Shown here: positions 1 to 64,000 of the stretch, one piece after another
Layout: each line of letters opens with the position of its first letter
Position numbering within the stretch: the first letter of the stretch is position 1
NCBI RefSeq assembly: GCF_026151205.1
Contig: NC_087081.1
Span: forward strand, 18,088,859 to 18,152,858
Direction: 5' to 3'
Length of the DNA stretch: 64,000 nucleotides
Source of the DNA: Bolinopsis microptera
Taxonomy: Eukaryota > Ctenophora > Tentaculata > Lobata > Bolinopsidae
The notes under the pieces: model-generated
Told to the model about the DNA's origin: nothing
Database searches by the model: none
What the model saw: only the letters and a program-made list of their open reading frames with translations
Program-made: the position numbers and the translations under genes

Positions 1-3000
1 CCTGCTCTGTAACTAAACTAACCTTTGATTTATAAGCAGTATTTAAGGTATCAGGTCCTAGTCCACCTGCTCTGTAACTAAACTAACCTTTGATTTATAA
101 GCAGTATTTAAGGTATCAGGTCCTAGTCCACCTGCTCTGTAACTAAACTAACCTTTGATTTATAAGCAGTATTTAAGGTATCAGGTCCTAGTCCACCTGC
201 TCTGTAACTAAACTAACCTTTGATTTATAAGCAGTATTTAAGGTATCAGGTCCTAGTCCACCTGCTCTGTAACTAAACTAACCTTTGATTTATAAGCAGT
301 ATTTAAGGTATCAGGTCCTAGTCCACCTGCTCTGTAACTAAACTAACCTTTGATTTATAAGCAGTATTTAAGGTATCAGGTCCTAGTCCACCTGCTCTGT
401 AACTAAACTAACCTTTGATTTATAAGCAGTATTTAAGGTATCAGGTCCTAGTCCACCTGCTCTGTAACTAAACTAACCTTTGATTTATAAGCAGTATTTA
501 AGGTATCAGGTCCTAGTCCACCTGCTCTGTAACTAAACTAACCTTTGATTTATAAGCAGTATTTAAGGTATCAGGTCCTAGTCCACCTGCTCTGTAACTA
601 AACTAACCTTTGATTTATAAGCAGTATTTAAGGTATCAGGTCCTAGTCCACCTGCTCTGTAACTAAACTAACCTTTGATTTATAAGCAGTATTTAAGGTA
701 TCAGGTCCTAGTCCACCTGCTCTGTAACTAAACTAACCTTTGATTTATAAGCAGTATTTAAGGTATCAGGTCCTAGTCCACCTGCTCTGTAACTAAACTA
801 ACCTTTGATTTATAAGCAGTATTTAAGGTATCAGGTCCTAGTCCACCTGCTCTGTAACTAAACTAACCTTTGATTTATAAGCAGTATTTAAGGTATCAGG
901 TCCTAGTCCACCTGCTCTGTAACTAAACTAACCTTTGATTTATAAGCAGTATTTAAGGTATCAGGTCCTAGTCCACCTGCTCTGTAACTAAACTAACCTT
1001 TGATTTATAAGCAGTATTTAAGGTATCAGGTCCTAGTCCACCTGCTCTGTAACTAAACTAACCTTTGATTTATAAGCAGTATTTAAGGTATCAGGTCCTA
1101 GTCCACCTGCTCTGTAACTAAACTAACCTTTGATTTATAAGCAGTATTTAAGGTATCAGGTCCTAGTCCACCTGCTCTGTAACTAAACTAACCTTTGATT
1201 TATAAGCAGTATTTAAGGTATCAGGTCCTAGTCCACCTGCTCTGTAACTAAACTAACCTTTGATTTATAAGCAGTATTTAAGGTATCAGGTCCTAGTCCA
1301 CCTGCTCTGTAACTAAACTAACCTTTGATTTATAAGCAGTATTTAAGGTATCAGGTCCTAGTCCACCTGCTCTGTAACTAAACTAACCTTTGATTTATAA
1401 GCAGTATTTAAGGTATCAGGTCCTAGTCCACCTGCTCTGTAACTAAACTAACCTTTGATTTATAAGCAGTATTTAAGGTATCAGGTCCTAGTCCACCTGC
1501 TCTGTAACTAAACTAACCTTTGATTTATAAGCAGTATTTAAGGTATCAGGTCCTAGTCCACCTGCTCTGTAACTAAACTAACCTTTGATTTATAAGCAGT
1601 ATTTAAGGTATCAGGTCCTAGTCCACCTGCTCTGTAACTAAACTAACCTTTGATTTATAAGCAGTATTTAAGGTATCAGGTCCTAGTCCACCTGCTCTGT
1701 AACTAAACTAACCTTTGATTTATAAGCAGTATTTAAGGTATCAGGTCCTAGTCCACCTGCTCTGTAACTAAACTAACCTTTGATTTATAAGCAGTATTTA
1801 AGGTATCAGGTCCTAGTCCACCTGCTCTGTAACTAAACTAACCTTTGATTTATAAGCAGTATTTAAGGTATCAGGTCCTAGTCCACCTGCTCTGTAACTA
1901 AACTAACCTTTGATTTATAAGCAGTATTTAAGGTATCAGGTCCTAGTCCACCTGCTCTGTAACTAAACTAACCTTTGATTTATAAGCAGTATTTAAGGTA
2001 TCAGGTCCTAGTCCACCTGCTCTGTAACTAAACTAACCTTTGATTTATAAGCAGTATTTAAGGTATCAGGTCCTAGTCCACCTGCTCTGTAACTAAACTA
2101 ACCTTTGATTTATAAGCAGTATTTAAGGTATCAGGTCCTAGTCCACCTGCTCTGTAACTAAACTAACCTTTGATTTATAAGCAGTATTTAAGGTATCAGG
2201 TCCTAGTCCACCTGCTCTGTAACTAAACTAACCTTTGATTTATAAGCAGTATTTAAGGTATCAGGTCCTAGTCCACCTGCTCTGTAACTAAACTAACCTT
2301 TGATTTATAAGCAGTATTTAAGGTATCAGGTCCTAGTCCACCTGCTCTGTAACTAAACTAACCTTTGATTTATAAGCAGTATTTAAGGTATCAGGTCCTA
2401 GTCCACCTGCTCTGTAACTAAACTAACCTTTGATTTATAAGCAGTATTTAAGGTATCAGGTCCTAGTCCACCTGCTCTGTAACTAAACTAACCTTTGATT
2501 TATAAGCAGTATTTAAGGTATCAGGTCCTAGTCCACCTGCTCTGTAACTAAACTAACCTTTGATTTATAAGCAGTATTTAAGGTATCAGGTCCTAGTCCA
2601 CCTGCTCTGTAACTAAACTAACCTTTGATTTATAAGCAGTATTTAAGGTATCAGGTCCTAGTCCACCTGCTCTGTAACTAAACTAACCTTTGATTTATAA
2701 GCAGTATTTAAGGTATCAGGTCCTAGTCCACCTGCTCTGTAACTAAACTAACCTTTGATTTATAAGCAGTATTTAAGGTATCAGGTCCTAGTCCACCTGC
2801 TCTGTAACTAAACTAACCTTTGATTTATAAGCAGTATTTAAGGTATCAGGTCCTAGTCCACCTGCTCTGTAACTAAACTAACCTTTGATTTATAAGCAGT
2901 ATTTAAGGTATCAGGTCCTAGTCCACCTGCTCTGTAACTAAACTAACCTTTGATTTATAAGCAGTATTTAAGGTATCAGGTCCTAGTCCACCTGCTCTGT

Positions 3001-5655
3001 AACTAAACTAACCTTTGATTTATAAGCAGTATTTAAGGTATCAGGTCCTAGTCCACCTGCTCTGTAACTAAACTAACCTTTGATTTATAAGCAGTATTTA
3101 AGGTATCAGGTCCTAGTCCACCTGCTCTGTAACTAAACTAACCTTTGATTTATAAGCAGTATTTAAGGTATCAGGTCCTAGTCCACCTGCTCTGTAACTA
3201 AACTAACCTTTGATTTATAAGCAGTATTTAAGGTATCAGGTCCTAGTCCACCTGCTCTGTAACTAAACTAACCTTTGATTTATAAGCAGTATTTAAGGTA
3301 TCAGGTCCTAGTCCACCTGCTCTGTAACTAAACTAACCTTTGATTTATAAGCAGTATTTAAGGTATCAGGTCCTAGTCCACCTGCTCTGTAACTAAACTA
3401 ACCTTTGATTTATAAGCAGTATTTAAGGTATCAGGTCCTAGTCCACCTGCTCTGTAACTAAACTAACCTTTGATTTATAAGCAGTATTTAAGGTATCAGG
3501 TCCTAGTCCACCTGCTCTGTAACTAAACTAACCTTTGATTTATAAGCAGTATTTAAGGTATCAGGTCCTAGTCCACCTGCTCTGTAACTAAACTAACCTT
3601 TGATTTATAAGCAGTATTTAAGGTATCAGGTCCTAGTCCACCTGCTCTGTAACTAAACTAACCTTTGATTTATAAGCAGTATTTAAGGTATCAGGTCCTA
3701 GTCCACCTGCTCTGTAACTAAACTAACCTTTGATTTATAAGCAGTATTTAAGGTATCAGGTCCTAGTCCACCTGCTCTGTAACTAAACTAACCTTTGATT
3801 TATAAGCAGTATTTAAGGTATCAGGTCCTAGTCCACCTGCTCTGTAACTAAACTAACCTTTGATTTATAAGCAGTATTTAAGGTATCAGGTCCTAGTCCA
3901 CCTGCTCTGTAACTAAACTAACCTTTGATTTATAAGCAGTATTTAAGGTATCAGGTCCTAGTCCACCTGCTCTGTAACTAAACTAACCTTTGATTTATAA
4001 GCAGTATTTAAGGTATCAGGTCCTAGTCCACCTGCTCTGTAACTAAACTAACCTTTGATTTATAAGCAGTATTTAAGGTATCAGGTCCTAGTCCACCTGC
4101 TCTGTAACTAAACTAACCTTTGATTTATAAGCAGTATTTAAGGTATCAGGTCCTAGTCCACCTGCTCTGTAACTAAACTAACCTTTGATTTATAAGCAGT
4201 ATTTAAGGTATCAGGTCCTAGTCCACCTGCTCTGTAACTAAACTAACCTTTGATTTATAAGCAGTATTTAAGGTATCAGGTCCTAGTCCACCTGCTCTGT
4301 AACTAAACTAACCTTTGATTTATAAGCAGTATTTAAGGTATCAGGTCCTAGTCCACCTGCTCTGTAACTAAACTAACCTTTGATTTATAAGCAGTATTTA
4401 AGGTATCAGGTCCTAGTCCACCTGCTCTGTAACTAAACTAACCTTTGATTTATAAGCAGTATTTAAGGTATCAGGTCCTAGTCCACCTGCTCTGTAACTA
4501 AACTAACCTTTGATTTATAAGCAGTATTTAAGGTATCAGGTCCTAGTCCACCTGCTCTGTAACTAAACTAACCTTTGATTTATAAGCAGTATTTAAGGTA
4601 TCAGGTCCTAGTCCACCTGCTCTGTAACTAAACTAACCTTTGATTTATAAGCAGTATTTAAGGTATCAGGTCCTAGTCCACCTGCTCTGTAACTAAACTA
4701 ACCTTTGATTTATAAGCAGTATTTAAGGTATCAGGTCCTAGTCCACCTGCTCTGTAACTAAACTAACCTTTGATTTATAAGCAGTATTTAAGGTATCAGG
4801 TCCTAGTCCACCTGCTCTGTAACTAAACTAACCTTTGATTTATAAGCAGTATTTAAGGTATCAGGTCCTAGTCCACCTGCTCTGTAACTAAACTAACCTT
4901 TGATTTATAAGCAGTATTTAAGGTATCAGGTCCTAGTCCACCTGCTCTGTAACTAAACTAACCTTTGATTTATAAGCAGTATTTAAGGTATCAGGTCCTA
5001 GTCCACCTGCTCTGTAACTAAACTAACCTTTGATTTATAAGCAGTATTTAAGGTATCAGGTCCTAGTCCACCTGCTCTGTAACTAAACTAACCTTTGATT
5101 TATAAGCAGTATTTAAGGTATCAGGTCCTAGTCCACCTGCTCTGTAACTAAACTAACCTTTGATTTATAAGCAGTATTTAAGGTATCAGGTCCTAGTCCA
5201 CCTGCTCTGTAACTAAACTAACCTTTGATTTATAAGCAGTATTTAAGGTATCAGGTCCTAGTCCACCTGCTCTGTAACTAAACTAACCTTTGATTTATAA
5301 GCAGTATTTAAGGTATCAGGTCCTAGTCCACCTGCTCTGTAACTAAACTAACCTTTGATTTATAAGCAGTATTTAAGGTATCAGGTCCTAGTCCACCTGC
5401 TCTGTAACTAAACTAACCTTTGATTTATAAGCAGTATTTAAGGTATCAGGTCCTAGTCCACCTGCTCTGTAACTAAACTAACCTTTGATTTATAAGCAGT
5501 ATTTAAGGTATCAGGTCCTAGTCCACCTGCTCTGTAACTAAACTAACCTTTGATTTATAAGCAGTATTTAAGGTATCAGGTCCTAGTCCACCTGCTCTGT
5601 AACTAAACTAACCTTTGATTTATAAGCAGTATTTAAGGTATCAGGTCCTAGTCCA
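1..5655. repeat. 65-bp minisatellite, about 87 copies
   Basis: A 65-bp unit repeats head to tail from the left edge to 5655 and appears identical from copy to copy. Read on the minus strand, each unit contains 44 nt matching the 3' end of the exon at 5613-5865, then 21 nt that begin GTTAGT and end GAGCAG. Each unit therefore carries a donor-like site (AAAG|GTTAGT) and an acceptor-like CAG. Because 65 is not a multiple of three, translation through the array stops within the second unit. The array is probably longer than shown, as it is cut by the window edge. Collapse or expansion in the assembly is possible. Confidence 0.98.
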
Positions 5656-5865
5656 CCTGTTCTGTAACCAAAACTTCTCTTCATTGCTCCGTACTCTTTC
5701 AAAGTATAGGGTCTGTATGTAACTTGCGGTTTTGGAGCTGAATAACCCTCACCAGCCTTCTTGGGAGAGGGAGGGGGCAGAACTTCCTCCTCTACAGCTG
5801 AAATAGTTACAGGTAGGTGTTGGGGTGAGGTTTGGAAATTATCATAATAATTATTTCGGAGACCA
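5613..5865 (-). CDS. Internal exon of a JHY-like ciliary protein gene
   Basis: This 253-nt exon is open throughout and encodes 84 residues after one leading base. It has a proline-rich segment (VLPPPSPKKAGEGYSAPKP), then YRPYTLKEYGAMKR and TGGLGPD. The pairing of PYTLKEY with GGLGPD a few residues later is what I recall from the C-terminal domain of JHY (juvenile hydrocephalus) proteins; that assignment is from memory. The chosen acceptor follows ATCAG and lets the exon join in phase to the exon at 13762-13874. The donor AAAG|GTTAGT lies inside the first unit of the 65-bp array, so the array duplicates the exon end. Later exons would lie left of the window. Other cilia-associated proteins with similar motifs are possible. 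Confidence 0.55.
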
Positions 5866-6279
5866 CTGATCTGAGCTAGATCAGTATGGTATGGCATGGT
5901 AAGAGGTACGTGGCTGGTTTTTTCGGTATAGTGCCGAGAAAACTATCCCGCACCTACTTACCAGACCCGCAACGGATCAAGGCTGACCTTAACATAGTAT
6001 AGTATAGAGCTAAATATAGTATTATGCCTTGACATAAATATTTTTTTTAAATATGAGCCACAGTTCTTTCTTCTACCTTAAACTCCACACAAACTCCTGC
6101 ATCGTAAATAATACATATTGAAAACGGTTTATAGAATAAACTTACACTAAACACATACTAATTACTATGTATAACAAACTACACAGTATCGGCAGTGATT
6201 CGGCACGTAGATAAAGAATAAGAACATTTAAACATATACAAATTCTGATTACACTCAGTGTACTTGTATCTATAAGGCT
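5866..6279. other. Intron sequence, no gene seen
   Basis: AT-rich intron upstream (minus sense) of the JHY-like exon. A short inverted pattern around 5915-5960 (GGTATAGTGCCGAG) weakly resembles the 57-bp repeat at 11865-12092. No open frame or RNA gene is recognised. Confidence 0.5.
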
Positions 6280-6512: not shown

Positions 6513-7196
6513 TCACCCATAGCTTCTCCATAAACGTCTATCATGAGCTTTGTACACTAAATCGTTGAAATTACTTAAACTAAATCTTTTATTTACAATC
6601 ACAATAATATTCTTCGTCATAATGTCTTTTAATAATAAATCAAATAAATTTGAACGAGGTCTGCCCCTCCTTCCTTTGTAGTCAAGACATCCTAAACATG
6701 CAAATCTAAAAGATAAGAAAGCGGGAGTGTCATCACCGCTTCTGAGAACGTGCCCAAGCATCTTCCATCGTGCTTTCTTGATCCTTTCAGTAAGGGGACT
6801 GACATTACATCTCTTATATAAGTTCTCGTTACTGATAACCGTAGGCCAATAGGTGTTGATTATCTGTCTCAGATGCTTCCTTTGAAGAATGTCGACAGAT
6901 GCCATTACGGTTTCAGGAGCAGCCCAGCTGCTACAGTTATACAACAACACTGGCGTGACAAGAGCTTCGTACAACTTCAGCTTTCTACTCTCACTGATCT
7001 GAACAGAACTATTCAACCAGACTTTCTTGTAGGTGTAGAAGGCAACATTGGCTTTGTTGCGTCTGTTGACAATATCTCTTTCTGAACAGAGCTTTGATCC
7101 TAATAGCACTGACTCTCGCCACTCTTCATTTCCTCTGATTTTATTGAAATGGGCATCTAAAGCATCTGTCTCTGCCAAATACACTCTTGTAAACAC
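6513..7196 (-). pseudogene. LINE reverse transcriptase C-terminal remnant
   Basis: A 227-codon open frame matching the part of non-LTR retrotransposon ORF2 downstream of the RT catalytic core. It has LYEALVTPVLLYNCSSWA (the Y-G-x-W-like thumb motif), ILQRKHLRQIINTYWP, ARWKMLGHVLRSGDDTPA and GRRGRPRSNL. The catalytic YADD region and the endonuclease are missing, so this is a 5'-truncated copy. Its upstream end runs straight into the 34-bp array at 7187, which replaces the rest of the element. A homologous tail lies on the plus strand at 61696-62026. The frame is intact over its length, suggesting a fairly recent insertion, but it cannot encode an active enzyme. Confidence 0.85.
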
Positions 7197-7636
7197 TCCC
7201 CTTCTTAGTCTCCTTAACGTCCTCCCATCCCCCTCTTTAGTCTCCTTAACGTCCTCCCATCCCCTTCTTTAGTCTCCTCCCACTCCCCTTCTTTTGTCTC
7301 CTTAACGTCTCCCACTCCCCTTCTTTAGTCTCCTTAACGTCCTCCCACTCCCCTTCTTTAGTCTCCTTAGTGTCCTCCTACTCCCCTTCTTTAGTCTCCT
7401 TAACGTACTCCCACTCCCCTCTTTAGTCTCCTTAACGTCCTCCTACTCGGGCTACTCCCCTTCTTTAGTCACCTCCCACTCCCCTTCTTTAGTCTCCTTA
7501 ACGTCCTCCCACTCCCCTTCTTTAGTCTCCTTAACGTCCTCCTACTCCCCTTCTTTAGTCTTCTTAACGTCCTCCCACTCCCCTTCTTCAGTCTCCTTAG
7601 CGTCCTCCTACTCCCCTTCTTTAGTCTCCTTAACGC
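7187..7636. repeat. 34-bp pyrimidine-rich tandem array
   Basis: About 13 imperfect copies of a CT-rich unit with the core TTTAGTCTCCTTAACG, length 33-35 bp, with some units truncated (CTCCTTAACG missing). Strand-asymmetric: the plus strand is almost all pyrimidine. It abuts the LINE fragment. Confidence 0.9.
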
Positions 7637-8415: not shown

Positions 8416-8487
8416 AAAACTGTAGTTATTTTTAATTGTAGTTGACGAAATGAGAGTCTCCACTCAGTGTGTTAAAACATAATTCTT

Positions 8488-8522
8488 TGTCGACGTTTCG
8501 GCTACATGCCTTTGTCATAAAC
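8488..8522 (-). ncRNA. Hammerhead-ribozyme-like relic
   Basis: Minus-strand mirror of the motif at 9551-9585: AAAGGC, a short loop, GCC, then GAAACGTCGAC. See that entry for the comparison with the hammerhead core. Confidence 0.35.
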
Positions 8523-8800
8523 AGGACGTACTGAAAACTTACATAGCTGCAAAGATACAATGTTAAAATAATCTATTAAAATAATCTATTAATACTACGA
8601 AATATAACAACAACAAATAACATCTTGAAACACAACAACAATCACAAATTTATCCAAAAGAAACATAAAATATAACGGCTAAAAGAATCCAAACCGCAAC
8701 AAGCCGTGAACAATTCTTCATAATATTACAAACATTTTACCAAGATAGCTCCTTCATAAAACTGATTAATCAAAAATTATCTAGGTTTATAAGTTCAATA

Positions 8801-9064
8801 TTACATTAACTTCCAAGTATATTTTATCCAATCACCTTCATTTACGGACTCAGACAATTGAGTATTTATTTCTGGGTTTTCACGTTTTATTAGAACCGAC
8901 TGCCACAATTGACGGTCCACATAGTCTTTACATCTTTTTCGAACTATAAACCGAAACGGTATGTTTGGCATTGAAATGTCTGCATGCTCCTCTAGGTAGT
9001 GCTTCCCCATGGCCGTAGATTTGTTGCCATCCCTTACTATGGATGGCAACAAATCTACGGCCAT
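8801..9064 (-). pseudogene. PLE protein C-terminal fragment, left arm
   Basis: An 87-codon frame ending at 8801. Residues GKHYLEEHAD, FIVRKRCKDYVDRQLWQSVLIKRENPEINTQ fit the second half of a GIY-YIG domain, where a conserved E/Q and an Arg-Arg-Pro-like segment precede the C-terminus. The first 20 residues are read across the palindrome centre and are not part of the original protein. It is the mirror image of the frame at 9009-9272. The GIY and YIG motifs and the whole RT domain are absent. Confidence 0.6.
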
Positions 9065-9272
9065 GGGGAAGCACTACCTAGAGGAGCATGCAGACATTTC
9101 AATGCCAAACATACCGTTTCGGTTTATAGTTCGAAAAAGATGTAAAGACTATGTGGACCGTCAATTGTGGCAGTCGGTTCTAATAAAACGTGAAAACCCA
9201 GAAATAAATACTCAATTGTCTGAGTCCGTAAATGAAGGTGATTGGATAAAATATACTTGGAAGTTAATGTAA
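9009..9272 (+). pseudogene. PLE protein C-terminal fragment, right arm
   Basis: Plus-strand twin of 8801-9064, differing only in residues read through the palindrome centre. It ends in TAA after WKLM. A third partial copy, starting at the codons for RQLWQSV, lies at 10089-10200 within the 930-bp duplication. Confidence 0.6.
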
Positions 9273-9550
9273 TATTGAACTTATAAACCTAGATAATTTT
9301 TGATTAATCAGTTTTATGAAGGAGCTATCTTGGTAAAATGTTTGTAATATTATGAAGAATTGTTCACGGCTTGTTGCGGTTTGGATTCTTTTAGCCGTTA
9401 TATTTTATGTTTCTTTTGGATAAATTTGTGATTGTTGTTGTGTTTCAAGATGTTATTTGTTGTTGTTATATTTCGTAGTATTAATAGATTATTTTAATAG
9501 ATTATTTTAACATTGTATCTTTGCAGCTATGTAAGTTTTCAGTACGTCCT

Positions 9551-9585
9551 GTTTATGACAAAGGCATGTAGCCGAAACGTCGACA
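9551..9585 (+). ncRNA. Hammerhead-ribozyme-like relic in PLE end
   Basis: The sequence TTTATGACAAAGGC, loop ATGTA, GCCGAAACGTCGAC resembles the hammerhead core CUGANGA - stem II - GAAA - stem III. Stem II (GGC/GCC) and the GAAAC box are present, but the canonical CUGANGA is degenerate (TTTATGACA), so self-cleavage is doubtful. Hammerheads in the terminal repeats of Penelope-like elements are established; applying that here is inference. Further copies are at 10481-10515, 60401-60431 and 60582-60616. Confidence 0.4.
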
Positions 9586-9697
9586 AAGAATTATGTTTTA
9601 ACACACTGAGTGGAGACTCTCATTTCGTCAACTACAATTAAAAATAAATGATTGACCCACTCATAAGAGCAAAACAAGATTACCAAAACTGTAGTTA

Positions 9698-11510
9698 ATT
9701 TAGACTGTCTGCATAGTTTAACTGCACAATAATCGCCCCTTGTAGTCTAAATTTACATTCATCATTGCTAAAATTCATTCATCAAAACATTTTTCCAACA
9801 AAGTTTCCAGGTCCTCCTTCCTTGCACCCTATTTGAGATCTATACTCTAGGTCCTCTCTACTTGCACCCTATTTGAGATCTATACTCCAGGTCCTCTTTC
9901 CTTGCACCCTATTTGAAATCTATACTCTAGGTCCTCTTTCCTTGTACCCTATTTGAGATCTATACACTAGGTCCTCTTTCCTTGCACCCTATTTGAAATC
10001 TATATTCTAGGTCCTCTTTCCTTGCACCCTATTTGAAATCTATATTCTAGGTCCTCTTTCCTTGCACCCTATTTGAAATTTATATTCACGTCAATTGTGG
10101 CAGTCGGTTCTAATAAAACGTGAAAACCCAGAAATAAATACTCAATTGTCTGAGTCCGTAAATGAAGGTGATTGGATAAAATATACTTGGAAGTTAATGT
10201 AATATTGAACTTATAAACCTAGATAATTTTTGATTAATCAGTTTTATGAAGGAGCTATCTTGGTAAAATGTTTGTAATATTATGAAGAATTGTTCACGGC
10301 TTGTTGCGGTTTGGATTCTTTTAGCCGTTATATTTTATGTTTCTTTTGGATAAATTTGTGATTGTTGTTGTGTTTCAAGATGTTATTTGTTGTTGTTATA
10401 TTTCGTAGTATTAATAGATTATTTTAATAGATTATTTTAACATTGTATCTTTGCAGCTATGTAAGTTTTCAGTACGTCCTGTTTATGACAAAGGCATGTA
10501 GCCGAAACGTCGACAAAGAATTATGTTTTAACACACTGAGTGGAGACTCTCATTTCGTCAACTACAATTAAAAATAAATGATTGACCCACTCATAAGAGC
10601 AAAACAAGATTACCAAAACTGTAGTTAATTTAGACTGTCTGCATAGTTTAACTGCACAATAATCGCCCCTTGTAGTCTAAATTTACATTCATCATTGCTA
10701 AAATTCATTCATCAAAACATTTTTCCAACAAAGTTTCCAGGTCCTCCTTCCTTGCACCCTATTTGAGATCTATACTCTAGGTCCTCTCTACTTGCACCCT
10801 ATTTGAGATCTATACTCCAGGTCCTCTTTCCTTGCACCCTATTTGAAATCTATACTCTAGGTCCTCTTTCCTTGTACCCTATTTGAGATCTATACACTAG
10901 GTCCTCTTTCCTTGCACCCTATTTGAAATCTATATTGTAGGTCCTCTTTCCTTGCACCCTATTTGAAATCTATATTCTAGGTCCTCTTTCCTTGCACCCT
11001 ATTTGAAATCTATATTCTAGGTCCTCTTTCCTTGCACCCTATTTGAAATCTATACTCTAGGTCCTCTTTCCTTGTACCCTATTTGAAATCTATACTCTAG
11101 GTCCTCTTTCCTTGCACCCTATTTGAAATCTATATTCTAGGTCATCTTTCCTTGCACCCTATTTGAAATCTATATTCTAGGTCCTCTTTCCTTGCACCCT
11201 ATTTGAAATCTATATTCTAGGTCCTCTTTCCTTGCACCCTATTTGAAATTTATATTCTAGGTCCTCTTTCCTTGCACCCTATTTGAAATCTATACTCTAG
11301 GTCCTCTTTCCTTGTACCCTATTTGAAATCTATACTCTAGGTCCTCTTTCCTTGCACCCTATTTGAGATCTATACTCTAGGTCCTCTTTCCTTGCACCCT
11401 ATTTGAGATCTATACTCTAGGTCCTCTTTCCTTGCACCCTATTTGAAATCTATATTCTAGGTCCTCTTTCCTTGCACCCTATTTGAAATCTATACTCTAT
11501 AGTCTATGTA
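9698..11510. repeat. 40-bp arrays in a 930-bp tandem duplication
   Basis: From about 9808 a 40-bp unit (core CCTTGCACCCTATTTGA) repeats seven times. The array then breaks at 10088 into a second copy of the right arm of the PLE palindrome, starting at CGTCAATTGTGG. Positions 9159-10088 are therefore repeated at 10089 onward with an offset of 930 bp. In the second copy the 40-bp array resumes at 10737 and expands to about 19 units, ending near 11500. Shared variants (GAGATCTATACTCTAG, GAAATCTATATTCTAG) occur in the same order in both arrays, showing that the segment was copied as a block. Confidence 0.92.
10481..10515 (+). ncRNA. Hammerhead-like relic, duplicated copy
   Basis: Exact copy of 9551-9585 carried in the 930-bp tandem duplication. 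Confidence 0.35.
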
Positions 11511-11864: not shown

Positions 11865-12092
11865 TTACCGGGTTCCTGCGTGGTATGGATGGGGGGTAAG
11901 GCAGAGTAACCTCCGTATAGTTACCTGGTTCCTACGTGGTATGGATGGGGGGTAAGGCAGAGTAACCTCCGTATAGTTACCTGGCTCCTGCGTGGTATGG
12001 ATGGGGGGTAAGGCAGAGTAACCTCCGTATAGTTACCTGGTTCCTGCGTGGTATGGATGGGGGGTAAGGCAGAGTAACCTCCGTATAGTGCC
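11865..12092. repeat. 57-bp tandem repeat, four copies
   Basis: Four near-identical 57-bp units carrying CGTGGTATGGATGGGGGGTA and CCTCCGTATAGT. As 57 is a multiple of three, both overlapping minus frames stay open across it and give repetitive peptides (QVTIRRLLCLTPHPYH). This is a consequence of the period, not evidence for a gene. Confidence 0.92.
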
Positions 12093-12284
12093 GGGAACTC
12101 TCCTCCGCCAGAGATAGTGCACATTGCACTGGGTAAAGTGTGCGGGTATGTAGATATTTTACTTTCTGTTCCCTCCTCTCCTGAGAAAAAGAGTACTGGT
12201 AATGCACCATAGTCAGAGGTTTAATTATAATATTGAAGTGAGGTTTAGTAAGAAAAAAGTTATTTTTCAAAGAAAAGCTCCCGA

Positions 12285-12460: not shown

Positions 12461-13761
12461 CGGAAGGCTAAAGCACTTGTGTATACACCTTGATCCCGGA
12501 GAAGAAGTATATCGTCAAAAAATTTCGAATGGCCGATCAAGTTTAAAGAATGACTTTTTTGTGTGACATTCGCCCTTCCAAAAAAAACACGACGAATGTT
12601 TGCAGCATACGAGCATACAGTACGTTATATATTCGACCACTATTATCAAACTCCCAATGTATAACATTCGCCCTTTGAAAATCTAAACTAAGCACGATAG
12701 AGCTTCAAACTGATTGGGATGTTATAGACCTCTACTATTAGACCTTTGTTTTAAGCCATAGTAAAATTTGACATTCGTCCTTTAGAAAAAACCACAACGA
12801 TATATAAAATATAATTTATAAGCTATTAAAGAGTTCAAGTAAACTATCGTCACAATTAAACACATTTATTGAGGACGTTACAGAGGGAATTGATTTAATG
12901 TAATCCGCGGATCATGAGTCCCAGGGGTGTAGGAAGCGCCCCCCCCCCCACATAAAATTTGGGCAACAAGGGCCAACTTTTTAATTTAGGTTTCTAAAAA
13001 TTTTTCTGGAAACTACTTTTGTTCATATTTCATGCTACCCTGATCATTATGAGCCGAAAATATTTTTTCGGTTTTCGAAGTTCGTACCTACATTCGGAAG
13101 GCTGTGGATGTGATTGGTTTCATATACTTATAGAAAACGTGATATTTGGCCTGCAGATTTGAAGGAAAATACGCGAATTTGGATTTAAAGGAAAATGCGC
13201 AATTTGTCGCGAGGCCAGGATCTGAAAAACCGCGATTTGTCGCGGCAAAGATGAAAAATCGCGATTCCGCACATGCCGCAATTTCCTTTTGTCCTTACCC
13301 CGAACATCTTTTGAAATTTAGTTTTTGGCAAAAAATTTAGGTTTTGGCAAAAAATATCTAAAATTTGCCCAGATTTTACTATTTTCACAACTTCGACTTA
13401 ATTTTTGTAAACTACAATTTACTACGTTTATTGAGTACTATGTAATGGAAGTGCTTTAACCAGGTGAAGCCAGTTCACAGCTTGGCTTCAAAATACAAAG
13501 GACTTGTTTTAATTGTAAATGAAAAGCTCGAATAAAATGACCTAGCTAAAAAACGCGAGATTTCAACTTAATTTGAGAGCAAGAATTGGTTTCAATATTT
13601 CGTTTTATTAAGTCTTTCCCGGGGAAATATGGTTAAATTTAAACTGTAGATATTATGAAAACTGTTAAATCGAACAGCAATAAGAAACAACATGATCTGA
13701 CTAATACTGACCGTGATAATTTCTAATTTCTGGACTGATGAACTGTCTTTCATTCTCACAC
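12461..13761. other. Intron with C-run and dispersed repeat copy
   Basis: Mostly unrecognised sequence. It contains a C-run at 12939-12949 and, 40 bp later, one copy of the dispersed repeat described at 12985-13085. 13150-13390 is rich in CGCGATTTGTCGCGGCAAA-like motifs. No gene is supported. Confidence 0.45.
12985..13085 (+). repeat. Dispersed repeat, copy 1 (TATTTTTTCGGTTTTCGAAG family)
   Basis: Contains TCTGGAAACTACTTTTGTTC, CATGCTACCCTGATCATTAT and TATTTTTTCGGTTTTCGAAG. The same order occurs at 21965-22060 and, inverted and degenerate, three or four times in 27618-28380. All copies lie near a homopolymer G or C run. Confidence 0.8.
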
Positions 13762-13874
13762 CTCTGCTTTGAAATATTGGCACACTTCTTTCTGTCAAGT
13801 TGCTTATCCAATTGCTGCTGTTTAGCCAAATACATCTCCGTGTAACTGGTCTTATTCTTCTTACTGGGCTTTAC
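13762..13874 (-). CDS. Coiled-coil exon of the JHY-like gene
   Basis: A 113-nt exon after a clear acceptor (CACACTTTCAG) and before a donor matching GTGTGAG. It encodes 37 residues plus two bases: a basic start (PSKKNKTSYTEMYLAKQQQ) and a heptad-like LDKQLDRKK, suggesting a helical or coiled-coil segment. It enters in phase 0, as the exon at 15389-15499 requires, and leaves in phase 2, as the exon at 5613-5865 requires. The 20-bp array at 13878-14503 reaches almost to its acceptor. Function is inferred from the downstream JHY-like exon only. Confidence 0.5.
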
Positions 13875-13877
13875 CTG

Positions 13878-14503
13878 AAAGTGTGACAACGCATGAGGGA
13901 GTGTGACAACGCATGAGAGAGTGTGACAACGCATGAGGGAGTGTGACAACGCATGAGGGAGTGTGACAACGCATGAGAGAGTGTGACAACGCATGAGAGA
14001 GTGTGACAACGCATGAGAGAGTGTGACAACGCATGAGAGAGTGTGACAACGCATGAGAGAGTGTGACAACGCATGAGAGAGTGTGACAACGCATGAGAGA
14101 GTGTGACAACGCATGAGAGAGTGTGACAACGCATGAGAGAGTGTGACAACGCATGAGGGAGTGTGACAACGCATGAGAGAGTGTGACAACGCATGAGGGA
14201 GTGTGACAACGCATGAGAGAGTGTGACAACGCATGAGGGAGTGTGACAACGCATGAGAGAGTGTGACAACGCATGAGAGAGTGTGACAACGCATGAGAGA
14301 GTGTGACAACGCATGAGGGAGTGTGACAACGCATGAGAGAGTGTGACAACGCATGAGAGAGTGTGACAACGCATGAGAGAGTGTGACAACGCATGAGGGA
14401 GTGTGACAACGCATGAGGGAGTGTGACAACGCATGAGGGAGTGTGACAACGCATGAGGGAGTGTGACAACGCATGAGGGAGTGTGACAACGCATGAGGGA
14501 GTC
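13878..14503. repeat. 20-bp minisatellite abutting an acceptor
   Basis: About 31 copies of a 20-bp unit (plus strand GTGTGACAACGCATGAGAGA, with a GAGGGA variant in an irregular pattern). On the minus strand it supplies the intron sequence directly before the acceptor of the exon at 13762-13874. Open frames through it (HALSHSLMRCHTPS repeats) exist because three of its frames lack stops; they are not genes. The GAGAGA and GAGGGA variants could be used as a typing pattern. Confidence 0.97.
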
Positions 14504-14783: not shown

Positions 14784-14935
14784 GGTCTACAACTTTCACC
14801 CAAGATAATGCCTCATGATGTCGTTTAAAAAAAATTCTCATTGCTGTATTGTATATGTACTATTTGTAAAAGTTTTAAATCAGGATCCAACATAAACCAT
14901 TGTCCAAAAAACCTAGCTTCGGAGTCGCTGTCAGA

Positions 14936-15165
14936 CAAGAGTGGCCCAATCCTACCTTAATCTGTGAGATATTGTTTGTAGGATGTTTGAAAGAGTGGCC
15001 CAATCCTACCTTAATCTGTGAGATATTGTTTGTAGGATGTCAGACAAGAGTGGCCCAATCCTACCTTAATCTGTGAGATATTGTTTGTAGGATGTCAGAC
15101 AAGAGTGGCCCAATCCTACCTTAATCTGTGAGATATTGTTTGTAGGATGTTTGAAAGCTTTTGGG
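14936..15165. repeat. Four-copy repeat with unit 50-58 bp
   Basis: AGAGTGGCCCAATCCTACCT continuing to TTGTTTGTAGGATGT occurs four times, linked by alternating CAGACAAG and TTGAA spacers. It lies in the intron between the exons at 15389 and 13874. Confidence 0.9.
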
Positions 15166-15388
15166 TGCTGGATATCATTGTAAAGCACTTCCGCTTGGTC
15201 GTTTATCCTCTCAACTAATCTAGAGCTGGAACTTGCCTGACGAGTAATTACAATATAAAGAAAATAGAAAAATTAGCAACGAATTGACGACAAAAATAGC
15301 TGAGCCCAAGATTTTCAATTTGAGTAATCATGTGACGGCACACCACCTTTACCACCACATTTACCACCACCTTTACACCACCACATAC

Positions 15389-15499
15389 CAGTTTAGCCTG
15401 TAAGAGTTCATTCGAGTCCCTAACACAGCAGAGGACGTTAGAAGAGTTGATGTATTCCATTGACAAACTGGACAGCAGATTACTTTGCCTTTCTGAATC
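15389..15499 (-). CDS. Candidate internal exon of the JHY-like gene
   Basis: A 111-nt open block (37 codons) preceded on the minus strand by GACGGCAG and followed by donor CTG|GTATGT. The protein runs DSERQSNLLSSLSMEYINSS then NVLCCVRDSNELLQAKL, with a polar, helix-prone composition. It both starts and ends in phase 0, which fits the next exon. The polypyrimidine tract is weak, so the acceptor is uncertain. I recognise no domain; membership of the same transcript is inferred from strand, order and phase. Confidence 0.4.
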
Positions 15500-16057
15500 C
15501 TGCCGTCTTATCTGGTTTGTTTGAACATTTTATTGACCGATAAGAACAGACCAAACTAAAAGGTGAATTTCAGAATTGTTTTTGCGATTATTTCACCAAA
15601 AATTCAAAAAGCCAAATTGATAATAAGGAAGCGATAAGCAATTAATATTCTAAGAGAAAAGAGCACAAAAATCGAACCACAAAATCATCAGAAAGTTTTC
15701 TCCTGTCGGTCCTCTTTCCTCCGGACAGCACTTTGTTTACACTTCTGATGGAGAACTGAGGTGCTGTAACTCCATCGCCTGAATGATGTGACGTCACGTG
15801 GTGTGAACTCACTCTCCTTATGTTATAGTGAAAATGGAGAGAGTTCTGAAACGCACGTCGCACAATAAGTACTACTACTATGTCACTATTATAAGTTTCA
15901 CCAAGTTACAATTTCCATAGTTTCCTTCATATCGAAAATGGAAAGGCTTACGGATGGATGGCGAGTTATTAATTAACCTTGGTAGGTAGTGCACCCCCTA
16001 ACCTTGGTATTCTGTTCTAATGAGAGAGTGTTTTCGGAGAGTTGTTGAGGGGTGTTG
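15500..16057. other. Non-coding, probably intron
   Basis: No convincing exon. A 73-codon minus frame at 15642-15863 has no recognisable features and no clear splice borders. Confidence 0.4.
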
Positions 16058-19000
16058 GTCAACCTGTCAACTGATCAGGGTGCACCTGTCAACTAATCAG
16101 GGTGCACCTGTCAACTAATCAGGGTGCACCTGTCAACTAATCAGGGTGCACCTGTCAACTAATCAGGGTGCACCTGTCAACTAATCAGGGTGCACCTGTC
16201 AACTAATCAGGGTGCACCTGTCAACTAATCAGGGTGCACCTGTCAACTAATCAGGGTGCACCTGTCAACTCATCAGGGTGCACCTGTCAACTGATCAGGG
16301 TGCACCTGTCAACTAATCAGGGTGCACCTGTCAACTAATCAGGGTGCACCTGTCAACTAATCAGGGTGCACCTGTCAACTAATCAGGGTGCACCTGTCAA
16401 CTAATCAGGGTGCACCTGTCAACTAATCAGGGTGCACCTGTCAACTAATCAGGGTGCACCTGTCAACTAATCAGGGTGCACCTGTCAACTAATCAGGGTG
16501 CACCTGTCAACTAATCAGGGTGCACCTGTCAACTAATCAGGGTGCACCTGTCAACTAATCAGGGTGCACCTGTCAACTGATCAGGGTGCACCTGTCAACT
16601 AATCAGGGTGCACCTGTCAACTGATCAGGGTGCACCTGTCAACTAATCAGGGTGCACCTGTCAACTAATCAGGGTGCACCTGTCAACTAATCAGGGTGCA
16701 CCTGTCAACTAATCAGGGTGCACCTGTCAACTAATCAGGGTGCACCTGTCAACTAATCAGGGTGCACCTGTCAACTAAACAGGTTGCACCTGTCAACTAA
16801 TCAGGGTGCACCTGTCAACTAATCAGGGTGCACCTGTCAACTAATCAGGGTGCACCTGTCAACTAAACAGGTTGCACCTGTCAACTAATCAGGGTGCACC
16901 TGTCAACTAATCAGGGTGCACCTGTCAACTGATCAGGGTGCACCTGTCAACTAATCAGGGTGCACCTGTCAACTGATCAGGGTGCACCTGTCAACTAATC
17001 AGGGTGCACCTGTCAACTGATCAGGGTGCACCTGTCAACTAATCAGGGTGCACCTGTCAACTAATCAGGGTGCACCTGTCAACTAAACAGGTTGCACCTG
17101 TCAACTAATCAGGGTGCACCTGTCAACTAATCAGGGTGCACCTGTCAACTAATCAGGGTGCACCTGTCAACTAATCAGGGTGCACCTGTCAACTAAACAG
17201 GTTGCACCTGTCAACTAATCAGGGTGCACCTGTCAACTAATCAGGGTGCACCTGTCAACTGATCAGGGTGCACCTGTCAACTAATCAGGGTGCACCTGTC
17301 AACTAATCAGGGTGCACCTGTCAACTAATCAGGGTGCACCTGTCAACTAATCAGGGTGCACCTGTCAACTAATCAGGGTGCACCTGTCAACTAATCAGGG
17401 TGCACCTGTCAACTAATCAGGGTGCACCTGTCAACTAATCAGGGTGCACCTGTCAACTAAACAGGTTGCACCTGTCAACTAATCAGGGTGCACCTGTCAA
17501 CTAATCAGGGTGCACCTGTCAACTGATCAGGGTGCACCTGTCAACTAATCAGGGTGCACCTGTCAACTAATCAGGGTGCACCTGTCAACTAATCAGGGTG
17601 CACCTGTCAACTAATCAGGGTGCACCTGTCAACTAATCAGGGTGCACCTGTCAACTAATCAGGGTGCACCTGTCAACTAATCAGGGTGCACCTGTCAACT
17701 AATCAGGGTGCACCTGTCAACTAATCAGGGTGCACCTGTCAACTAATCAGGGTGCACCTGTCAACTAATCAGGGTGCACCTGTCAACTGATCAGGGTGCA
17801 CCTGTCAACTAATCAGGGTGCACCTGTCAACTGATCAGGGTGCACCTGTCAACTAATCAGGGTGCACCTGTCAACTAATCAGGGTGCACCTGTCAACTAA
17901 TCAGGGTGCACCTGTCAACTAATCAGGGTGCACCTGTCAACTAATCAGGGTGCACCTGTCAACTAATCAGGGTGCACCTGTCAACTAAACAGGTTGCACC
18001 TGTCAACTAATCAGGGTGCACCTGTCAACTAATCAGGGTGCACCTGTCAACTAATCAGGGTGCACCTGTCAACTGATCAGGGTGCACCTGTCAACTAATC
18101 AGGGTGCACCTGTCAACTAATCAGGGTGCACCTGTCAACTAATCAGGGTGCACCTGTCAACTCATCAGGGTGCACCTGTCAACTGATCAGGGTGCACCTG
18201 TCAACTAATCAGGGTGCACCTGTCAACTAATCAGGGTGCACCTGTCAACTAATCAGGGTGCACCTGTCAACTAATCAGGGTGCACCTGTCAACTAATCAG
18301 GGTGCACCTGTCAACTAATCAGGGTGCACCTGTCAACTAATCAGGGTGCACCTGTCAACTAATCAGGGTGCACCTGTCAACTAATCAGGGGTGCACCTGT
18401 CAACTAATCAGGGTGCACCTGTCAACTAATCAGGGTGCACCTGTCAACTAATAAGGGTGCACCTGTCAACTAATAAGGGTGCACCTGTCAACTAATAAGG
18501 GTGCACCTGTCAACTAATAAGGGTGCACCTGTCAACTAATAAGGGTGCACCTGTCAACTAATCAGGGTGCACCTGTCAACTAATCAGGGTGCACCTGTCA
18601 ACTAATCAGGGTGCACCTGTCAACTAATCAGGGTGCACCTGTCAACTAATCAGGGTGCACCTGTCAACTAATCAGGGTGCACCTGTCAACTAATCAGGGT
18701 GCACCTGTCAACTAATCAGGGTGCACCTGTCAATTAATCAGGGGTGCACCTGTCAACTAATCAGGGTGCACCTGTCAACTAATCAGGGGTGCACCTGTCA
18801 ACTAATCAGGGGTGCACCTGTCAACTAATCAGGGGTGCACCTGTCAACTAATCAGGGTGCACCTGTCAACTAATCAGGGTGCACCTGTCAACTAATCAGG
18901 GTGCACCTGTCAATTAATCAGGGGTGCACCTGTCAACTAATCAGGGTGCACCTGTCAACTAATCAGGGGTGCACCTGTCAACTAATCAGGGGTGCACCTG

Positions 19001-19797
19001 TCAATTAATCAGGGGTGCACCTGTCAACTAATCAGGGTGCACCTGTCAACTAATCAGGGGTGCACCTGTCAACTAATCAGGGGTGCACCTGTCAACTAAT
19101 CAGGGGTGCACCTGTCAACTAATCAGGGTGCACCTGTCAACTAATCAGGGTGCACCTGTCAACTAATCAGGGTGCACCTGTCAACTAATCAGGGGTGCAC
19201 CTGTCAACTAATCAGGGTGCACCTGTCAACTAATCAGGGTGCACCTGTCAACTAATCAGGGTGCACCTGTCAACTAATCAGGGTGCACCTGTCAACTAAT
19301 CAGGGTGCACCTGTCAACTAATCAGGGTGCACCTGTCAACTAATCAGGGTGCACCTGTCAACTAATCAGGGTGCACCTGTCAACTAATCAGGGGTGCACC
19401 TGTCAACTAATCAGGGTGCACCTGTCAACTAATCAGGGTGCACCTGTCAACTAATCAGGGTGCACCTGTCAACTAATCAGGGTGCACCTGTCAACTAATC
19501 AGGGTGCACCTGTCAACTAATCAGGGTGCACCTGTCAACTAATCAGGGTGCACCTGTCAACTAATCAGGGGTGCACCTGTCAACTAATCAGGGTGCACCT
19601 GTCAACTAATCAGGGTGCACCTGTCAACTAATCAGGGTGCACCTGTCAACTAATCAGGGTGCACCTGTCAACTAATCAGGGTGCACCTGTCAACTAATCA
19701 GGGTGCACCTGTCAACTAATCAGGGTGCACCTGTCAACTAATCAGGGTGCACCTGTCAACTAATCAGGGTGCACCTGTCAACTAATCAGGGGTGCAC
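16058..19797. repeat. 22-bp satellite, about 168 copies
   Basis: Unit GTGCACCTGTCAACTAATCAGG. Variants (AACTGATCAG, AAACAGGTTG, AATAAGGG) recur in blocks, e.g. the AAACAGGTTG unit near 16770, 16863, 17084, 17190, 17458 and 17985, indicating higher-order copying. The right third is enriched in 23-bp units with an extra G. The array ends in a perfect inverted half-unit (see findings). It has no coding potential. Confidence 0.98.
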
Positions 19798-21006
19798 CCC
19801 TGATTAGTTGACATATCATTGATTAATATAATATCAACATAACAATTTATTCACCTGTCTTTTATTCATTGCTCCATGATTTTTCAGAGATGAGTGGCAG
19901 TTTTCTAACATCATAGCCATACTTAGATTAAAGTTACATTGTTAATTTTCAAAATATGATTATCATTGGTATAACTTAAAGCCAGAGAGCTAGAGGGGTG
20001 GGGGGGGGGGGGTCCAAGGTCAATTTTAATCATTGTTGATGTGATAGCGCTACTGGAGACGATCAAGTATCGAGGAAAAACGTATTCTGATTGTCGTTTT
20101 GCCTCACGAGCCATATAAACCATGACTGCATTGAAGCTGCCACCAACCTGACTGATGAACAGATATGATCAGTATCTGAAAGATGTTTAATACTTTAGTC
20201 GGTAATATTATGGGGGAGGGGGGGGGGAAATTAATAATATTTTTATTAACAAAAACACTCAGTGTCTATTTATTTAATTTAGACACTCAACTGCAGTCAA
20301 GCATCGTAATTTCCCCGTCGAAATTTTCTAATTGCAAACGAGTGCATTCCAAACATATGTTCCATGAATGCTATGTAGTTAACCTGAAATGGTTGACCAC
20401 GTGACGTCGTTACAATTTACAATTTAGTTCACCAGAACTCCCGAATAGGTCCGACTTAAGTAATCATGTTACTGTCATGTTACTGTGAAGTTTTTATTGC
20501 ATGATATTGACAATTTAATGTTCACCACAACTACAAACGTCATCGTGACGTGGAAAACGTTCTCAAACTGTGGAACACTCAATAATTGTCAAGCATACTT
20601 ATCATATGATCAAGCATATTATCTAAGAAACATTCAGAAAGTGTCAAGCATGACATCACTGTTTAAATATTGCACGTGAATGTAGGAGCATTATATAGAC
20701 ACGAGAAATAAGTAAGTAAATAAACGTATACGAGGATCAAAATAAACGAAATATCAGAGCAGGAGGAAATTGAATAAGGTTTTCTCGTGTAGTTTGAAAT
20801 ATAGGTTCCGGTTCCATTCGTTTGATTCGATTGGGGAATTCCAACACTAGCACAACACTAATAACGCCTTTGTGGTAAATCGGAGTTTTACTGTAGGTAT
20901 TATCAATTATCAGTGAATATTATCAATATCCAATACAGTACTATAATACATAGCTTAGGTACTGTAGATACTATAATAATATATATAGGTACTGTAGATA
21001 CAATAA
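19798..21006. other. Non-coding, with G-runs
   Basis: Holds G-runs at 20000-20012 and 20218-20227 and AT-rich sequence with partial copies of the following array (20945-21006). No exon is supported. Confidence 0.45.
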
Positions 21007-43878: not shown

Positions 43879-44001
43879 TTAATTAGACTCCACGAAAGGT
43901 TTTAAAGCAGTCTGGAGCTCGCTGTAAGCAGTGTCCAGATTGTCGTTTACTATGGTGTAATTGAAGAGGTCAGGGTGTTGAGCTATGTACTCCATATCTT
44001 T
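43879..44001 (-). CDS. GUK1: Guanylate kinase, last coding exon
   Basis: A 123-nt exon with an excellent acceptor (CTTTCTCACTTTCAG). It encodes KDMEYIAQHPDLFNYTIVND, then NLDTAYSELQTALKPFVESN and TAA. This is the C-terminal end of guanylate kinase (GMP + ATP to GDP + ADP): the family ends with a xDLFDyvIVNDdLdkAYxeLk pattern closing the core fold. The ending soon after that helix favours the small soluble enzyme over a MAGUK scaffold. Upstream exons should lie to the right on the minus strand, but I found none before 64000. The intron then contains the duplicated PLE, or this is an isolated exon copy. Confidence 0.75.
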   Translation of the reverse strand, partial: KDMEYIAQHPDLFNYTIVNDNLDTAYSELQTALKPFVESN

Positions 44002-44150
44002 CTGAAAGTGAGAAAGTTTTATCCATTCTTAGAAATAATCAAGCTTTTTATTATTCAATCCTACATATTGATTAAAATAAATTGTATTGATTAAATTAAC
44101 ATGATTAAGAGCGAAACATGTTCATTCAAAGGCATGTAAAGAATGTAATG

Positions 44151-44440: not shown

Positions 44441-44637
44441 GAGTGGAGTTGGGTTAAAAACATATAAGAGATACGATGATTTAACTTGTAGAAGCTTTCA
44501 ATAAACATGTGTTAATCGTCGTCAGCTGAATGTGATGTGGTGGACAATGCTTATATGTGATTGAGTGGCGTCAGGGATGGAGGGTGGGGGAGGTGTGGGT
44601 GAGAAAGTGAAAATTACAGTACAATGTCAATAAAAAT

Positions 44638-62166: not shown

Positions 62167-62276
62167 GTATGGTGATATAACCACTAATCAGTTGAAAACA
62201 ATGGATCCTGTGGAGCAGCAAACTATATTTACACTTTATGCTATTCTGTGCTTCCTACCAATATTATTTTCAGCAG
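62167..62276 (+). CDS. Membrane-protein gene, internal exon
   Basis: After ACTTTTCAG, one base then YGDITTNQLKTMDPVEQQTI and FTLYAILCFLPILFSAG, closing at donor CAGCAG|GTATGC with one base over. The second half is a hydrophobic segment that reads as a transmembrane helix. It joins in phase to the exon at 62563. No family recognised. The last 30 bp are duplicated just downstream (62285-62319). Confidence 0.55.
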
Positions 62277-62319
62277 GTATGCTTTTCTGTGCTTCCTACC
62301 AATGTTATTTTCAGCAGGA
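62246..62319 (+). repeat. Tandem duplication of an exon end
   Basis: TTCTGTGCTTCCTACCAAT followed by TTATTTTCAGCAG occurs at 62244-62276 and 62284-62317. The first copy ends the exon. The second has the shape of a splice acceptor. Confidence 0.9.
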
Positions 62320-62562: not shown

Positions 62563-62656
62563 GGTTGTTGCCCCCTCTAGATTGCCTCTTCTGCTGGCTA
62601 CCAGAAACATGGCTTGTCATATTCAATGGTACATCTGCCAGCACTTCTCTTTTGGG
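62563..62656 (+). CDS. Membrane-protein gene, next internal exon
   Basis: A strong acceptor (TTGTTCTTATATTTCAG) and donor (TTGGG|GTTAGT) bound 94 nt. In the phase set by 62276 it encodes LLPPLDCLFCWLPETWLVIF then NGTSASTSLLG plus two bases: a second hydrophobic segment followed by an N-glycosylation-type NGTS. The other open frame (VVAPSRLPLLLATRNMACHI) does not match the upstream phase. The next exon should lie beyond 64000, or past the 66-bp array that begins 30 bp downstream. Confidence 0.55.
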
Positions 62657-62689
62657 GTTAGTTTATATAGCAAACAATAGCTGTCTTTT

Positions 62690-63618
62690 AGACAAGGCAA
62701 GAAAGTATCTAAAAGTTATGGGTAAAACCTCAATTTAATGTTCCCTTATTTACCGTAACAAGCTTAGAAAGTATCTAAAAGTTATGGGTAAAACCTCAAT
62801 TTAATGTTCCCTTATTTACCGTAACAAGGCAAGAAAGTATCTAAAAGTTATGGGTGAAACCTCAATTTAATGTTCCCTTATTTACCGTAACAAGGCAAGA
62901 AAGTATCTAAAAGTTATGGGTAAAACCTCAATTTAATGTTCCCTTATTTACCGTAACAAGGCAAGAAAGTATCTAAAAGTTATGGGTAAAACCTCAATTT
63001 AATGTTCCCTTATTTACCGTAACAAGGCAAGAAAGTATCTAAAAGTTATGGGTAAAACCTCAATTTAATGTTCCCTTATTTACCGTAACAAGGCAAGAAA
63101 GTATCTAAAAGTTATGGGTAAAACCTCAATTTAATGTTCCCTTATTTACCGTAACAAGGCAAGAAAGTATCTAAAAGTTATGGGTAAAACCTCAATTTAA
63201 TGTTCCCTTATTTACCGTAACAAGGCAAGAAAGTATCTAAAAGTTATGGGTAAAACCTCAATTTAATGTTCCCTTATTTACCGTAACACTTTAGAAAGTA
63301 TCTAAAAGTTATGGGTAAAACCTCAATTTAATGTTCCCTTATTTACCGTAACAAGGCAAGAAAGTATCTAAAAGTTATGGGTAAAACCTCAATTTAATGT
63401 TCCCTTATTTACCGTAACAAGGCAAGAAAGTATCTAAAAGTTATGGGTAAAACCTCAATTTAATGTTCCCTTATTTACCGTAACAAGGCAAGAAAGTATC
63501 TAAAAGTTATGGGTAAAACCTCAATTTAATGTTCCCTTATTTACCGTAACAAGGCAAGAAAGTATCTAAAAGTTATGGGTAAAACCTCAATTTAATGTTC
63601 CCTTATTTTCCGTAACAT
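62690..63618. repeat. 66-bp minisatellite, 14 copies
   Basis: Unit with AAGTATCTAAAAGTTATGGG, TAAAACCTCAATTTAATGTT and CCCTTATTTACCGTAACAAG. Two copies carry a different junction (AAGCTTAGAAAG at 62759 and CACTTTAGAAAG at 63287). It starts 34 bp after the donor of the exon at 62563. Confidence 0.97.
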
Positions 63619-64000
63619 GGCGACAACTAGCGCTGGCCAGCGCTAGTTGTCGCTATCCAGCGCTAGTTATCGAACTGTTTTCTGCGGTGGCCAGTTGCCC
63701 TGGCCATCGCAAACTATCGCGTGCGACAGTGTCGCATAGCCAGCGACAACTAGCGCTGGATAGCGACAACTAGCGCTGGATGGCGACAACTAGCGCTGGA
63801 TGGCAACAACTAGCGCTGGATAGCAACAATTATCGAACATATATATTTTGCGCTGGCCAGCGTTATCCAGCGCTGGATAGGCGATAGCGACAACTAGCGC
63901 TGGATAGCAACAATTATCGAACATATATATTTTGCGCTGGCCAGCGTTATCCAGCGCTGGATAGGCGATAGCGACAACTAGCGCTGGATAGCGCTAGTTG
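63612..64000. repeat. Palindromic CAGCGCTGG repeat cluster
   Basis: Many copies of GCGACAACTAGCGCTGGATA in both orientations, with AGCGCTGGCCAGCGCTAG palindromes and a 110-bp direct duplication (63829-63893, 63903-63984). It is much GC-richer than the flanks and continues past the window edge. Confidence 0.95.

Follow-up and report, generated by a model that had tools for sequence, protein, structure and literature searches.

Why should one and the same splice donor occur dozens of times in a row at the apparent end of an exon, and how might a gene tolerate it? The question is raised by the left end of a stretch of 64,000 nucleotides (nt) from the ctenophore Bolinopsis microptera (contig NC_087081.1 of assembly GCF_026151205.1, positions 18,088,859 to 18,152,858; hereafter the window), where a tandem array of a 65-base-pair (bp) unit meets candidate exon D of a putative minus-strand gene. 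The answer that we consider probable is that the array is a minisatellite that arose when a segment spanning a 5' splice site was duplicated in tandem, and that it has been tolerated because the first donor still works. Tandem Repeats Finder placed the array at positions 1-5672 with 87.3 copies, in keeping with a minisatellite (head-to-tail units of approximately 10-100 bp in many copies). Comparison unit by unit found all 87 full units, at 1-5655 on the minus strand, to be identical, and the next stretch after 5655 is the diverged exon side. The left edge of the window cuts the array, so that the assembly has at least 87 units.

Read on the minus strand from its donor, each unit consists of GTTAGT (6 nt) and then a 59-nt stretch that agrees at 57 of 59 positions with the final 59 nt of exon D. 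The sequence CAAAG/GTTAGT (slash, exon-intron boundary) occurs 87 times on the minus strand of the array and nowhere else in the window, and the GTTAGT donor is at the 98th percentile among all GTs of the window. The original prediction, made from the sequence alone, that an AAAG/GTTAGT donor is repeated about 87 times in a row in copies that look identical was thus confirmed. Its division of the unit into the last 44 nt of the exon plus 21 nt beginning with the donor is literally true, but the unit is better read as GTTAGT plus a 59-nt exon tail: the 44 exact nt are the inner part of the 59-nt copy, and 15 of the 21 supposed intron nt are exon copy. The CAG acceptor-like site that was noted in every unit is present but not strong: ACAG scores 2.2 (approximately the 95th percentile of AGs) and GCAG -1.3 under one scoring scheme, and both score 0.3 (81st-88th percentile) under a second. 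Given the 59-nt exon copy in the unit, these proposed acceptor sites consist of exon sequence. Splicing of the units as 21-nt mini-introns, which had also been raised, is unlikely and was rejected, given the 15 nt of exon copy, internal acceptors that are not strong and a length below that of animal introns. Each unit does contain a second donor-like site, GCAG/GTGGAC, 21 nt downstream of GTTAGT, with a score of 2.3 versus 3.5 for GTTAGT.

Candidate exon D (5613..5870, minus strand) ends in ...TYRPYTLKEYGAMKRSFGYRTGGLGPDTLNTAYKSK/GTTAGT, with its last base at plus-strand position 5613, the intron starting at 5612 and the last 43 nt of the exon lying within the 65-bp array. Its acceptor could be at 5870, 5875 or 5797, each of which keeps the frame open; the frame runs open from 5942 to beyond the donor, and the encoded peptide is protein-like, with an amino-acid composition above that of 96% of comparable stop-free AG..GT segments. 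The first (most upstream) GTTAGT donor, at 5607..5612 on the minus strand, is the sole one of the 87 that leaves the frame free of an early stop. As had been anticipated from the unit length (65 = 3n+2), an extra unit shifts the frame and brings a stop: retention of one, two or three full units leads to the same stop, nine codons into the first retained unit, and therefore only the first donor preserves the protein.

From these observations we infer that exon D is real and that splicing uses the first donor. We propose that the last 59 nt of the exon were duplicated together with GTTAGT, and that the duplicated segment was amplified to at least 87 identical units, either very recently or under strong homogenisation. 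The array would in this way have come to lie in the intron downstream of exon D. Splicing at the first donor would give normal mRNA, leaving the remaining 86 GTTAGT donors of the window as decoys, and use of a decoy would add a unit with an early stop to a transcript that should then go to decay.

The array could instead be functional, serving as a field of donors that binds the U1 small nuclear ribonucleoprotein and tunes premature polyadenylation, splicing or expression. An intact donor in each of the 87 units would fit such a role, and a report on the Caenorhabditis elegans minisatellite CeRep25B describes it as over-represented near alternative splicing regions (PMC4039745). However, recent amplification gives uniformity too, and we judge a function of this kind to be highly improbable.

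The uniformity itself sets the 65-bp array apart, since more than one kind of unit was present in each of 14 other arrays compared; a 22-bp array (16062-19798) has 29 distinct units among 169, and a 67-bp array has two among 12. That 87 of 87 units show no difference, contrary to those arrays, could mean that the copy number or the perfect identity is an artefact of assembly and that the units of the actual locus are fewer or vary. Against this, other long arrays of the same assembly, the 22-bp array among them, do retain variant units, and there is no N anywhere in the window. An artefact is in our view rather unlikely, and, because it is compatible with the other explanations, our confidences in the alternatives overlap. 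As a separate observation, the right end of the 22-bp array enters a short palindrome of its unit.

Amplification of an exon end and its donor, the explanation that we prefer for the 65-bp array, may not be confined to exon D, since a like architecture, overlooked in the original prediction, is present at further exon candidates of the window. On the minus strand, candidate exons A, B, C, E and D join in that order into 753 open nt with compatible phases. Exon A (15389..15511, phase 0-0) has a weak coding score and a weak acceptor, and a 12-bp array (15341..15390, minus strand) touches its donor. Exon B (15120..15236, phase 0-0) is followed by a 55-bp array (14929..15150, minus strand) of approximately four units that lies across its donor, TTAAG/GTAGGA, the successive donors being at 15119, 15064, 15009 and 14955. 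The spacing of these donors (55, 55 and 54 nt) and the two kinds of unit junction indicate that duplication at this site probably happened at least twice. Exon C (13712..13874, phase 0-1) is the member of the set whose donor is not in any array. Exon E (12037..12128, phase 1-0), for which blind scans favour an acceptor at 12180, has a 56-bp array (11865..12089, minus strand) of approximately four units across its donor, with CCAG/GTAACT in the units and CCCG/GTAAGC past the last one. By our reading, C could also join D directly by phase at 5797 or 5875, so E is not needed by the frame.

At the right end of the window, two plus-strand candidates whose phases fit each other were assigned to a second putative gene. 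Exon g1 (62167..62276) has the donor GCAG/GTATGC at 62277, across which two copies of a 41-bp unit lie (62237..62318, plus strand), and exon g2 (62563..62721) has a weak donor, ATGG/GTAAAA (score -0.5), straddled by 14 units of a 66-bp array (62692..63621, plus strand). Searches of g1 and g2 against Pfam and the Protein Data Bank (PDB) returned nothing credible.

Counted by hand, arrays straddle five of seven donors (those with the 65-, 56-, 55-, 41- and 66-bp units) and none of seven acceptors. An edge test that was blind to the exon model was then applied to 23 arrays with periods of 20-111 on both strands (43 donor-side and 42 acceptor-side tests), with approximately 3000 random positions per unit length as the null. 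The 65-bp array, for which the best exon ending in the first unit was 5613-5797, and the 56-bp array both scored above all random positions (p = 0.0003 each); on the donor side the 55-bp array followed with p = 0.02, the 41-bp array with p = 0.034-0.045 and the 66-bp array with p = 0.064, the latter only with lower thresholds. At p <= 0.01 there were two of 43 tests on the donor side (the 65- and 56-bp arrays) and none of 42 on the acceptor side, and at p <= 0.05 there were five and one, respectively. The same arrays led the donor side in an earlier run with at most 400 positions (65-bp, 0.002; 56-bp, 0.002; 55-bp, 0.007; 41-bp, 0.052). Consistent with this, when 31 non-overlapping exon candidates were ranked across the whole window, ranks 1 and 2 went to the E and D regions, both with the donor inside an array; in total, five of the 31 donors and none of the 31 acceptors were in arrays. 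The D region was ranked second in the form 5592-5797, which ends at GCAG/GTGGAC, 21 nt further than the modelled end. The description of exon D as real-looking in the original prediction, the interpretation of which is partly supported overall, stands to the extent that an exon-like minus-strand frame meets the first donor, as judged from sequence signals only.

If the frame of D were a chance one, the array would be a minisatellite of an ordinary kind, intergenic or intronic, in a genome dense with repeats. Roughly one-third of the window consists of tandem repeats (65 Tandem Repeats Finder rows, merged into 49 non-redundant arrays, cover 32.5% of it, or 26.0% without the 65-bp array), the D acceptors at 5870 and 5875 are weak, and homologues of the candidate exons were not found. 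Exons D, B, C and E and joined sets had no Pfam match above cut-off (DUF484 matches, with E = 0.015-0.049, were far below the curated cut-off), the PDB search with exon D and with joined B-C-D gave no usable relative, and in a scan of IMG/VR proteins with exon D seven stretches fitted the pattern and none was confirmed. Exact 32-base patterns of the 65-bp unit gave nothing usable in viral or genome collections, the same was true of the 22-bp array in the viral collection, and there was no Rfam match in the window at the gathering threshold. The GGLGPD ending of the D peptide recalls JHY/C11orf63, a resemblance that we take to be no more than a presumption, as neither D nor the joined exons had a PDB match or, in a Pfam collection that may lack a model of this region, a match above cut-off; a literature text search for the GGLGPD string found no paper. 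On the other side, the 65-bp array stands out in the blind edge test, the D region is second of 31 candidates, its open frame meets a 98th-percentile donor, and neighbouring exon candidates are phase-compatible with it. We therefore regard a chance frame as unlikely.

Several findings nevertheless weigh against duplication across a working donor as the origin of the 65-bp array, and against its extension to the other exons. No exon of the minus-strand gene has a confirming homologue in Pfam, the PDB, IMG/VR or the genome collection, and composition scores are modest, with D above 96% of segments, C above 91%, B above 80%, E above 71% and A above only 45%. Exons A, B, C, E, g1 and g2 were first spotted by looking near arrays. 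In the edge test, one of the five donor-side results at p <= 0.05 was the 56-bp array on the plus strand (p = 0.013), and the 22-bp array gave p = 0.03-0.047 on the acceptor side. In the whole-window ranking, for which candidates lying more than 60% in arrays had been removed beforehand, D and E end at other donors than those modelled (5592 versus 5613 for D, one unit later for E), and g1 and g2 fell below the score cut. The five of 31 donors in arrays are not above the fraction of the window in arrays, although a donor inside an array need not straddle the edge of that array. Of these five, one (28228-28444) sits in a 260-bp repeat outside the exon model. A coverage-based shift test, which predates the addition of exon E, found four of eight junctions near arrays versus a mean of 2.2, a count that 25% of shifts reach; the coincidence is not significant because arrays cover so much of the window. 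AGGT, noticed by eye before any tetramer was tested, had the highest enrichment among 136 strand-collapsed tetramers when 21 array units were compared (10 observed versus 4.2 expected, uncorrected p = 0.003; 10 versus 3.5 expected in a first run with 16 arrays), but after correction for the 136 tetramers p is approximately 0.45. The choice of donor is a further difficulty. Use of GCAG/GTGGAC (5592) in the first unit would add 21 nt (seven codons) that are in frame and stop-free. When identical donors compete, splicing often favours the one closest to the acceptor, which here would be the wrong one. Competition between adjacent donors is also context-dependent, according to a study of DOK7 (PMC5585400).

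The AGGT at the unit junctions bears on another explanation, namely that the duplication gave birth to an intron, as in the Rogers model, in which a duplicated AGGT supplies the splice signals. AG/GT is found at the junction of the 65-, 55-, 56- and 41-bp units (AAAG/GTT in the 65-bp unit), AGGT is the top tetramer in the array units, and PMC4974935 cites fission-yeast introns that extend over a 24-bp AGGT duplicate present in two or four copies. The junction AG is, however, a poor acceptor at D (-3.7, between the 38th and 58th percentiles), B (-2.0) and E (-1.7), and only g1 has a decent one (2.5). In addition, past the last unit of B and E, where the far ends are visible (that of D lies outside the window), the frame stays open for 26 codons and then meets a stop, and the 66-bp unit junction is GGGT, without AGGT. 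An origin of the intron in this way is quite unlikely.

If duplication across an existing donor is correct, the position of the arrays may reflect an asymmetry in what splicing tolerates. Duplication of a donor would be nearly harmless if the first donor is used, as the exon would still end correctly and the remainder would be intronic. Duplication of an acceptor would not be harmless, as the correct acceptor would become the last of several. We infer that this asymmetry, with a safe first donor and unsafe repeated acceptors, is why arrays straddle donors and not acceptors. It leaves unexplained why several arrays sit at donors and not deep in introns; provided that the exons are called correctly, there must in addition be some preference in the sites at which duplications begin. 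An array beside an acceptor is of interest here. A 20-bp array (13880..14502, minus strand) lies 6 bp from the exon C acceptor and contains no minus-strand AG in 623 bp, so that 628 nt upstream of that acceptor are without an AG. This fits a rule that acceptor-side repeats must offer no competing AGs, but the fit is only suggestive, and by our estimate the chance that a 20-bp unit has no AG is roughly a quarter.

By our reading, the repeated segment begins within the exon and ends shortly after the donor; its intron part is 6, 3, 17 and at most 5 nt in the 65-, 56-, 55- and 41-bp units, respectively, and 36 nt in the 66-bp unit. We speculate, as a doubtful generalisation, that tandem arrays of this genome arise repeatedly at 5' splice sites and that many introns therefore start with repeated copies of the preceding exon's end and its donor. 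An implication, were this true, would be a mutational process linked to exon-intron junctions, or else selection that retains only those arrays that splicing is able to conceal. If the pattern seen at several exons is general in the genome, minisatellite birth would be linked to splice sites, and tandem duplication would provide a route for introns to increase in length and perhaps also to originate.

The nearest known events that we found are introns made by tandem duplication, in which extra splice signals likewise come from duplicated sequence. PMC4974935 presents the AGGT tandem-duplication model of intron gain with support in ATP2A1, together with the fission-yeast genes SPOG_01682 and SOCG_00815, which resemble the 65-bp array in having multiple AGGT-containing copies, and potato RdRp, which resembles it in that the duplicated segment crosses an intron-exon boundary. 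In contrast to these, the 65-bp array is at a 5' splice site boundary, whereas the potato duplication is at an exon start, and it has at least 87 copies; by our reading it enlarged an existing intron, whereas the cases described there made a new one. CeRep25B (PMC4039745) is a looser parallel. It too has tandem units of tens of bp that are mostly intronic and near splice decisions, but it is described as a dispersed 24-base family with splicing-regulatory motifs, whereas the 65-bp unit was copied locally from the end of an exon and its donor. The tandem 5' splice sites of DOK7 intron 4 are alike in that donors compete and one of them frameshifts the product, although PMC5585400 describes two different donors 11 nt apart and not 87 identical donors at a spacing of 65 nt. 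Among the literature matches listed, judged mostly by title, there was no case of a donor in tens of copies. The array offers a natural test of how the spliceosome selects one donor out of dozens that are identical. Work on such choices has mostly used a few competing donors in minigenes.

Other features were identified in the window. A reverse-transcriptase-like frame, by our reading, at 6513-7268 (minus strand) runs into a 33-bp array, with only a sub-threshold DUF6451 match in Pfam. Nearby, 8426-9647 is a perfect inverted repeat with arms of 607 nt and a spacer of 8 nt, part of which recurs inverted at 10089-10577 and, at 93%, at 60495-60678. A candidate last exon of a guanylate kinase gene is present at 43895-44003 (minus strand; Pfam Guanylate_kin, E = 0.004, 17.3 bits, below the 25.2 cut-off), and a simple motif search showed no further exons of that gene. 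It is followed at 44420-46890 by a direct duplication of an apparent C-terminal frame of a Penelope-like element (minus strand), the copies of which are flanked by 17-bp arrays and have a weak GIY-YIG match (12.7 bits, E = 0.17). Lastly, TTAGGG-like repeats occur near 31.7 kb, which together with the guanylate kinase candidate are suggestive of an animal source, and a long purine-rich low-order repeat of the GAG/GGACTGAGGAG type, with 10-bp repeats at its flanks, occupies 35448-37172.

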